The notes below the pieces were generated by a model, which worked only from the letters and a program-made list of their open reading frames with translations, was not told the origin of the DNA and did not search any database. A program made the position numbers and the translations under genes. A DNA stretch of 64,000 nt from Bacteroidota bacterium (GTDB lineage Bacteria > Bacteroidota > Bacteroidia > Chitinophagales > Chitinophagaceae), in NCBI GenBank assembly GCA_016868855.1, contig VGFP01000003.1, positions 124,001-188,000 on the forward strand, given 5' to 3'. How positions within the stretch are numbered: position 1 is the first letter of the stretch; each line of letters opens with the position of its first letter. Of this stretch, positions 27,061 through 28,763 are shown one piece after another.

Positions 27061-27441
27061 ATGAGTTTTCCTGAGCAAATCAAATACACGAAAGAGCATG
27101 AGTGGATCTCAGTTGACGGCGACGTAGCAACCATTGGAATCACATCATTCGCACAAGGTGAATTGGGTGATATTATATTCATCGATATAGAGACCGTCGG
27201 CAAAGCCTTGCAGGCTGACCAGGTTTTTGGAACAGTTGAAGCTGTGAAAACCGTCAGTGATTTATTCCTTCCGGTAGACGGAACCATTCTTGAAAAAAAC
27301 CCCCTCCTTGAAAGTCAGCCTGAATTGGTTAACCAGGATCCTTATGGCGACGGATGGATGATAAAGATGAAAGTAGCCGATGCATCACAATTGAACAACC
27401 TGATGGATGTTCAAGCTTATAAGGCATTGATCGGAGCCTGA
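27061..27441 (+). CDS. gcvH: Glycine cleavage system H protein
   Basis: Lipoyl carrier of 126 residues that shuttles the aminomethyl group between the P, T and L proteins. The lipoylated Lys is K63 in VEAVKTVSDL, and TKEHEWI at the N-terminus is diagnostic. No other gcv gene is nearby, so the complex is encoded at separate loci. A near-consensus -7 element (TAATCTTG) lies just upstream. Confidence 0.97.
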   Translation: MSFPEQIKYTKEHEWISVDGDVATIGITSFAQGELGDIIFIDIETVGKALQADQVFGTVEAVKTVSDLFLPVDGTILEKNPLLESQPELVNQDPYGDGWMIKMKVADASQLNNLMDVQAYKALIGA

Positions 27442-27464
27442 TATATTTCAAAAGTTTTTCATAT

Positions 27465-27490
27465 AAAAAAGCCCCTGTTGAAACAGGGGC
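27465..27490 (-). terminator. Strong hairpin with T-run on the minus strand
   Basis: GCCCCTGT (27471-27478) and ACAGGGGC (27483-27490) form a perfect 8-bp stem with a TGAA loop. Six A's at 27465-27470 become a T-run on the minus strand, so as a terminator it works leftward, towards gcvH. On the plus strand the same hairpin sits 22 bases before a short start codon and could act as a leader structure. Confidence 0.6.
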
Positions 27491-27512
27491 CGGTAACCAA
27501 AACTAACTGCTT

Positions 27513-27656
27513 ATGAGAAAACTTTTGCTTTTGTCAATTATTTAGATGCTGTTTACAAGCCTTACCATCACTGGATTCGTTAAAAAATTATTAATCTCCC
27601 TGCTCTCCCAAAGACTACACCAATATAGACGTTTGAGCGTCCATTTGGTTTGTTAA
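27513..27656 (+). pseudogene. Possible remnant of the 5' end of a secreted-protein gene
   Basis: Too short for the ORF track. ATG at 27513 opens MRKLLLLSII and meets a TAG at 27543; the next codon in the same frame is ATG, continuing MLFTSLTITGFVKKLL for 36 codons to a TAA at 27656. Read through the TAG, the first 20 residues look exactly like a Bacteroidota signal peptide (basic start, hydrophobic core, small residues), after which the sequence has no protein-like character. I infer a decayed gene start left by a deletion or gene conversion, with the hairpin upstream as part of its leader. A functional 10-codon leader peptide is the main alternative. Confidence 0.4.
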
Positions 27657-27689
27657 AGGCTCCATAAATAGATGCATTTTCTTCTTCCT

Positions 27690-27709
27690 AAAAAGTGATT
27701 TTCATCACT
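27690..27709 (-). terminator. Weak terminator at the end of prfA
   Basis: AGTGAT (27694-27699) and ATCACT (27704-27709) form a perfect 6-bp stem with a TTTC loop that includes the prfA stop codon. On the minus strand four T's follow. Short stem and T-run make it modest. Confidence 0.5.
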
Positions 27710-28763
27710 GAGTGAGCTTACTTGCGTTCTCTGCAAATTGCAGGGCGTCTATCAGTTCACCGATATTGCCGTTGAGCACTTCATGAAGATTGTAGAGCGT
27801 CATTCCGATTCGGTGGTCTGTAACCCTTCCCTGTGGAAAATTGTAGGTGCGTATTTTCGCTGAGCGGTCACCCGTGCTGACCAAGCTTTTTCTGTGTCTG
27901 GAGATTTCATCTTCCTGTTTTCTAACCTGTTCCTCGTATAAACGGGTTCTGAGCATTTGCATTGCTTTTTCTCTGTTGCCGAGCTGGGTTCTTTCGGTTT
28001 GACAGATCACCACGGTTCCGGTTGGAATATGGGTAAGCATCACCTTGGTTTCCACCTTGTTGACGTTTTGTCCGCCTGCACCTCCACTTCGGGCAGTTTC
28101 CATCTTAACATCGCTCTCCCTTATTTCAACATCTACCTCCTCGGCTTCAGGCATCACAGCAACGGTCGCTGCACTGGTATGCACCCTTCCGCTGGCCTCA
28201 GTATTCGGTACCCTTTGCACGCGGTGTACACCACTTTCAAATTTCAATGTGCCATACACATCCTCACCAGTTACTTCCAGCTGTGCTTCTTTGTATCCTC
28301 CTACGGTCCCCTCGCTTTCAGAAAGCAATGCTGTTTTCCAGCCCTTTCCTTCACAATACCTGATGTACATCCTCAAAAGATCGCCTGCGAACAAAGAGGC
28401 TTCGTCACCTCCGGTTCCGGCCCTGATTTCAAGAATTGCATTTTTCTCATCCTGGGGATCTTTTGGAATCAGCATATTTCTGATTTGCTTTTCCAACTCC
28501 TCTTTTCGAAGATCAAGATCATCTGTTTCTGCTTTGGCCAATTCTCTGAGCTCTTCATCATCTCCCATCAAAGCCTCGCGGTTGAATTCAACAACAGACA
28601 AAATGCGTTTGTATTGCTCGTATGCAAGAACTATTTTCTCTAAACTTCTGTACTCCTTTGAAAGTTGACTGAAACGCTTGTTGTCGTTTACAACTTCCGG
28701 ATTGGTCAGGGCAACCCCGATGTCATCAAATTTGGCTTTTATGGCTTCCAGCTTATCTAACAT
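27705..28763 (-). CDS. prfA: Peptide chain release factor 1
   Basis: Releases finished peptides at UAA and UAG. The 352-residue protein has the catalytic GGQ motif (230-232, in [12 protein letters not shown]). The anticodon-like site reads PNT at 186-188, in RVPNTEASG, fitting the RF1 PxT pattern and not the SPF of RF2; there is no frameshift as in prfB. It is divergent from the amidohydrolase gene and has a good promoter upstream. Confidence 0.97.

Follow-up and report, generated by a model that had tools for sequence, protein, structure and literature searches.

In E. coli, the Sigma-E dependent sRNAs RybB and MicA lower the synthesis of outer-membrane proteins by pairing near start codons, and both are Hfq-dependent. 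In Bacteroides thetaiotaomicron, FopS/GibS form a set of paralogous sRNAs present in several copies, each with a conserved unpaired seed and ended by a Rho-independent terminator (PMC11697453). The FopS sRNAs have intergenic and 3'UTR-derived members, a phage-borne copy has been reported, and they pair near the start codons of SusC-like receptor mRNAs and bind RbpB (PMC11697453). The sigma-54 regulon of Flavobacterium psychrophilum is rich in chaperone and envelope-stress genes and includes the putative sRNA Rfp36 (PMC9723704). In the literature searched, no sRNA of such kind was found in Chitinophagaceae.

The window analyzed here is a stretch of 64,000 nucleotides from a Chitinophagaceae genome. 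Its gcvH-prfA gap (27442-27704, 263 bp) carries an element that, as judged from sequence comparison, probably belongs to an sRNA family repressing the production of an outer-membrane nutrient receptor. The features of the locus are the following.

27061 to 27441, plus strand: gcvH, the converging neighbour, here without the vanZ-like gene that many relatives have between it and the sRNA.
27464 to 27491, minus strand: predicted intrinsic terminator, a 9-bp hairpin plus U-run as the sRNA 3' end (terminator scan, stem covariation).
27495 to 27521, minus strand: 27-nt motif UUUUCUCAUAAGCAGUUAGUUUUGGUU, the proposed mRNA-pairing region; its 23-nt core (27495-27517) is defined by conservation across copies.
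27513 to 27656, plus strand: two short frames (MRKLLLLSII and MLFTSLTITGFV...), judged to be non-coding antisense of the sRNA, the frame not being kept in relatives and the genomic copy being single.
27615 to 27658, minus strand: genus-conserved upstream block CTTTAACA...CGTCTATATTGG, a possible sRNA promoter (or hairpin).
27705 to 28763, minus strand: prfA, the upstream neighbour on the same strand, whose read-through is an alternative source of the RNA.

A sequence-only reading of this gap had pointed to a perfect 8-bp hairpin and to two consecutive plus-strand frames. Both are present as described: the stem lies at 27471-27478 / 27483-27490, is conserved and on the minus strand forms an intrinsic terminator; the first frame opens with the ATG at 27513 and ends at the TAG at 27543-27545, and the second runs from the ATG at 27546 to a stop ending at 27656. 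That reading took the frames, joined across the TAG, for what is left of an exported-protein gene, its decayed 5' end and leader, or else for a small leader peptide. The joined frame does resemble a signal peptide, but we consider either version extremely improbable. A sequence search of the window's genome returned only one full copy of the element's DNA. Of the peptide, relatives retain only the first codons, and these lie antisense to the RNA motif. In the closest relatives the frame continues differently (MRKLLLFYYLIRC..., or MRKLLFFYIIRC and a stop) and the TAG is not kept at the orthologous position; the constraint lies on the minus-strand motif. The third suggestion, an RNA element, holds with its strand corrected: the functional strand is the minus strand, with a putative sRNA ending in the terminator. 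The reverse complement of the motif resembles a start region with an M-R-K signal peptide, which explains the earlier impression of a signal peptide. This likeness of the antisense to the start of an exported-protein gene is probably no accident, since pairing with such a start seems to be what the motif is made for.

The conserved part of the locus was delimited by searching 40 relatives with the gcvH-gap-prfA DNA. Coding parts aside, an isolated block of 57-60 bp (27463-27523 in the window) is ~91-95% identical in most genus members; outside it, the gap cannot be aligned in the majority of them. Read on the minus strand, this block is TTTTCTCATAAGCAGTTAGTTTTGGTT followed by the terminator. 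The 27-nt motif (27521-27495) is single-stranded and the terminator (27491-27464) comes directly after it; the terminator scan placed the hairpin from 27491 to 27470, with the T-run tail TTTTTATATG. Across 158 distinct copies, 20 of the 23 core positions are at least 99% invariant; a T-run precedes the core and a terminator comes after it. The sequence of the terminator stem varies freely and its pairing is kept: in 83 copies, 96.4% of stem cells are paired and all nine pairs change on both sides, giving a covariation score of 0.717 vs 0.236 when shuffled and at most 0.21 when slid. Searching Rfam 15 with the window and 12 other loci (E<=1) gave only hits below the gathering threshold, nothing above noise, and the motif as a text string had no match in the literature searched. 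By its sequence, the module is one copy of an RNA family without an Rfam match, apparently undescribed in the databases searched.

The 23-nt core (at most 2 mismatches) was found in 68 of the 299 genomes of an order-wide sample, vs none for a reversed-pattern control in the same sample. All but one of these belong to Chitinophagaceae, the window's own family. Carrying genomes hold 1-6 copies, the window's genome one. Five or more copies were seen in some genomes (G205, G288, G316; L193-L201, L221-L225), and tandem copies ~150 bp apart occur in genus g35. A covariance model run on motif-negative genomes retrieved a few partial relatives (G308, G278; E ~1e-9), its other matches being mostly weak and many of them terminator-only. 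The diverged modules of these two genomes (L449, L450) read TTTCTCATAAGCAGTATATTTTG and TTTTCTCATAAACAAAGTTTAGGTT, and their genus is without the exact motif. IMG/VR viral contigs gave 19 stretches with an exact match to a 21-nt part of the core, and no DNA match to the gcvH-prfA gap was found among INPHARED phages.

The neighbourhoods of the copies fall into several kinds. The converging neighbour is a VanZ-like gene (Pfam VanZ) in 56 copies and gcvH in 13, and the vanZ/gcvH locus is the ancestral site of the module. The window and its three closest relatives are without vanZ, so that gcvH comes next. Within the genus, prfA is often the upstream gene. This position on the same strand, together with a hairpin that makes a good terminator, could be taken for a plain prfA terminator or 3' UTR without regulatory role. 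We hold that reading to be very improbable, as many unrelated loci carry the invariant 23-mer ahead of differing terminators, frequently with a sigma-54 promoter of its own, and terminators need no such motif. The viral stretches and the several copies per genome could likewise fit an element acting at the DNA level and spread by phages, such as a recombination, attachment or protein-binding site. This is just as improbable: the motif has a strand-specific link to a terminator with a covarying stem, the flanks of the copies differ and no common att core extends beyond the motif. No integration junction at the motif was seen among the copies.

Thirteen copies lie 6-35 nt past hsp20 stop codons, and 10 of these 13 have G at core position 14. 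The hsp20 3'UTR loci (L202, L207, L208, L210, L211, L218, L228, L230, L237, L249, L254, L264, L268) mostly read GTTGG, which suggests that the hsp20-borne modules with GTTGG form a subfamily. Viral copies are often found 5-11 nt past phage gene stop codons, one such gene encoding a portal protein. At the viral loci (L174-L192) the module is often directly behind structural gene stops, and two viral copies sit just before DNA adenine methylase-like genes. Placement past hsp20 stops and directly past several phage gene stops, almost always before a terminator, would suit a 3'-end module recognized by a protein (an RNA chaperone, a processing or a stability factor) and not chiefly a pairing seed. 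The near-invariance of the core also exceeds what a seed usually needs, and RbpB, an RRM protein of Bacteroides, binds FopS sRNAs at their conserved region (PMC11697453). We nevertheless regard such a module as an unlikely full account, since it leaves unexplained the conserved complementarity to TonB receptor starts with flat controls that is described below; a protein-recognized module and an mRNA-pairing seed can both be true.

A TGGCA-N5-TTTG(C) motif was present upstream of 49 of the 158 copies (shuffle mean 1.3, maximum 7), mostly 43-75 nt from the RNA motif. The consensus, TTGGCACCGGATTTGC, is the -24/-12 box of sigma-54. At vanZ/gcvH of other genera 30 of 47 copies have it, and it was found in none of 18 viral and none of 13 hsp20 copies. 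A sigma-54 promoter shared by the module-carrying hsp20 genes themselves was considered and rejected, as only 1/13 had one. No clear sigma-54 box precedes the window copy, and the search of the window's genome (assembly 87% complete) revealed no RpoN, which is present in nearly all relatives. Joint loss of RpoN and the sigma-54 promoter was rejected because RpoN is retained in almost every genome, irrespective of the promoter there. Most genus copies, including that of the window, instead show the block CTTTAACA...CGTCTATAT at 45-130 nt before the motif. At four loci (L122, L127, L130, L132) an inverted repeat, AACAACC...GGTTGTT, with compensating changes lies upstream of the motif between TTTAACA and CGTCTATATATTGTG; it is possibly an operator or an RNA hairpin.

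The reverse complement of the motif, AACCAAAACTAACTGCTTATGAGAAAA (...ACTGCTT-ATG-AGA-AAA), resembles a translation start. Targets were predicted in 424 kb of the window's genome, an incomplete assembly (part of the window's contig included), and 400 kb of G205, with start codons called by simple rules. Among 392 gene starts of the window's genome, the strongest pairing (-25.6 kcal/mol) falls across the start codon of a TonB-dependent receptor (Pfam), and 4 of 500 shuffled motifs matched it; for the start sites ranked 3-5, 9, 1 and 0 of 500 shuffles did as well. The sampled starts showed no genome-wide enrichment of start-site complementarity. The exact complement 18-mer AAAACTAANTGCTTATGA (one wild-card base) has two sites in the genome, the sRNA itself and the TonB receptor start. 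A weaker complement match with 2 mismatches in 17 specified bases was seen at G000:C1:122888-122905 (minus strand), ~70 bp upstream of the receptor start and on the opposite strand.

The 13 SusC-like starts of the window's genome had a mean of -13.0 vs -10.5 when shuffled (0/300). A second SusC-like gene of this genome with strong start complementarity, -21.8 kcal/mol, was noted (L390, G000:C2:60448-63690). For receptor orthologues the means were -23.6 vs -12.1 shuffled in the genus (n=24) and -18.6 vs -11.3 in other genera (n=30), with 0/1000 shuffles in either set. Outside the genus the complementarity is kept in 37 genomes and is weaker in the 5'UTR, and shifting the tested region 40-60 nt upstream of the receptor starts brought the values near -9.5. 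Expressed as z, the receptor sets gave -7.3 (genus), -6.8 (other genera) and -5.0 (paralogues), although these shuffles overstate significance because orthologous starts share descent. Control starts were flat, between -0.6 and +0.6 (gcvH +0.2, hsp20 -0.1, SusC-like of G205 -0.6). The 5'UTR alone gave z -7.9 in the genus and -2.6 in other genera, so that in the latter part of the signal comes from MRK start codons; nine sampled MRK/MRR genes likewise pair better than shuffles. Thirty of the SusC-like starts of G205 gave no complementarity signal, and this genome has five exact motif copies yet no orthologue of the TonB receptor. A compensatory co-change between the diverged sRNA and the receptor start of G278 was rejected because the variant of this genome pairs less well (-15.7) than the canonical motif does (-19.0). 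A TAnnTTTG-like box, probably a promoter, is common in the receptor leaders ~20-25 nt ahead of the start codon; with the box at this distance, almost the whole leader may be covered by the pairing.

We consider it likely that the minus strand encodes a trans-acting sRNA whose motif pairs with the TonB receptor start and represses translation, whose terminator ends the RNA, and which acts within a sigma-54 programme. What the sequences show is the family, its conservation, the terminator structure, the sigma-54 motifs and the conserved complementarity; that the sRNA is transcribed, that repression is the direction of its effect, and what the inducing signal is, we infer. The element would form the 3' part of this sRNA, preceded by a leader of varying length. 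The unpaired 27-nt motif would pair across the 5'UTR and the start codon of the receptor mRNA (CAAAACUA(A)NUGCUU-AUG-A), and pairing over the translation start should block ribosome entry. A Rho-independent terminator would end the sRNA. The principal copy beside vanZ-gcvH would, in other family members, often be driven by sigma-54, and the sRNA would then probably reduce the amount of receptor made, as part of a sigma-54 programme (stress or envelope).

If so, the element represents a family-wide sRNA of Chitinophagaceae, apparently undescribed before, for which a concrete target is predicted; it is shared by bacteria of soil and water and by some viruses that infect them. The results suggest that seed-plus-terminator sRNAs tuned to TonB receptor starts arose outside Bacteroides under other sigma control, with phages and heat-shock genes as further carriers of the module. 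Phage-borne modules might even silence the host TonB receptor on infection and so exclude superinfecting phages with an RNA taken over from the sigma-54 outer-membrane programme of the host, but we think this unlikely. Short reporters would allow a direct test of the hypothesis, given that the motif is invariant.

Compared with the known systems, the element would share with RybB and MicA an sRNA driven by an alternative sigma factor and acting at the starts of outer-membrane proteins. This is a functional analogy only: the sequences are unrelated, and RybB and MicA are Hfq-dependent and use another sigma factor. Rfp36 is likewise a Bacteroidota regulatory RNA with a sigma-54 link, likened here by description only. 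The resemblance to FopS/GibS is wider. The family is multicopy, although the window's genome has just one copy, and combines a conserved unpaired seed with an intrinsic terminator; as for FopS there are intergenic, 3'UTR and viral copies and a predicted pairing at a receptor start. Unlike FopS/GibS, found in Bacteroidaceae and using sigma-ABfr promoters, it is hosted by Chitinophagaceae, has no Rfam match and has sigma-54 promoters at many copies (30/47 at vanZ/gcvH of other genera). Here the motif directly abuts the terminator, and the predicted target is mainly one TonB-dependent receptor lineage. The element was not filed as FopS, as its promoters are of another class and the likeness is one of function, not of demonstrated homology; it most likely works as FopS does.
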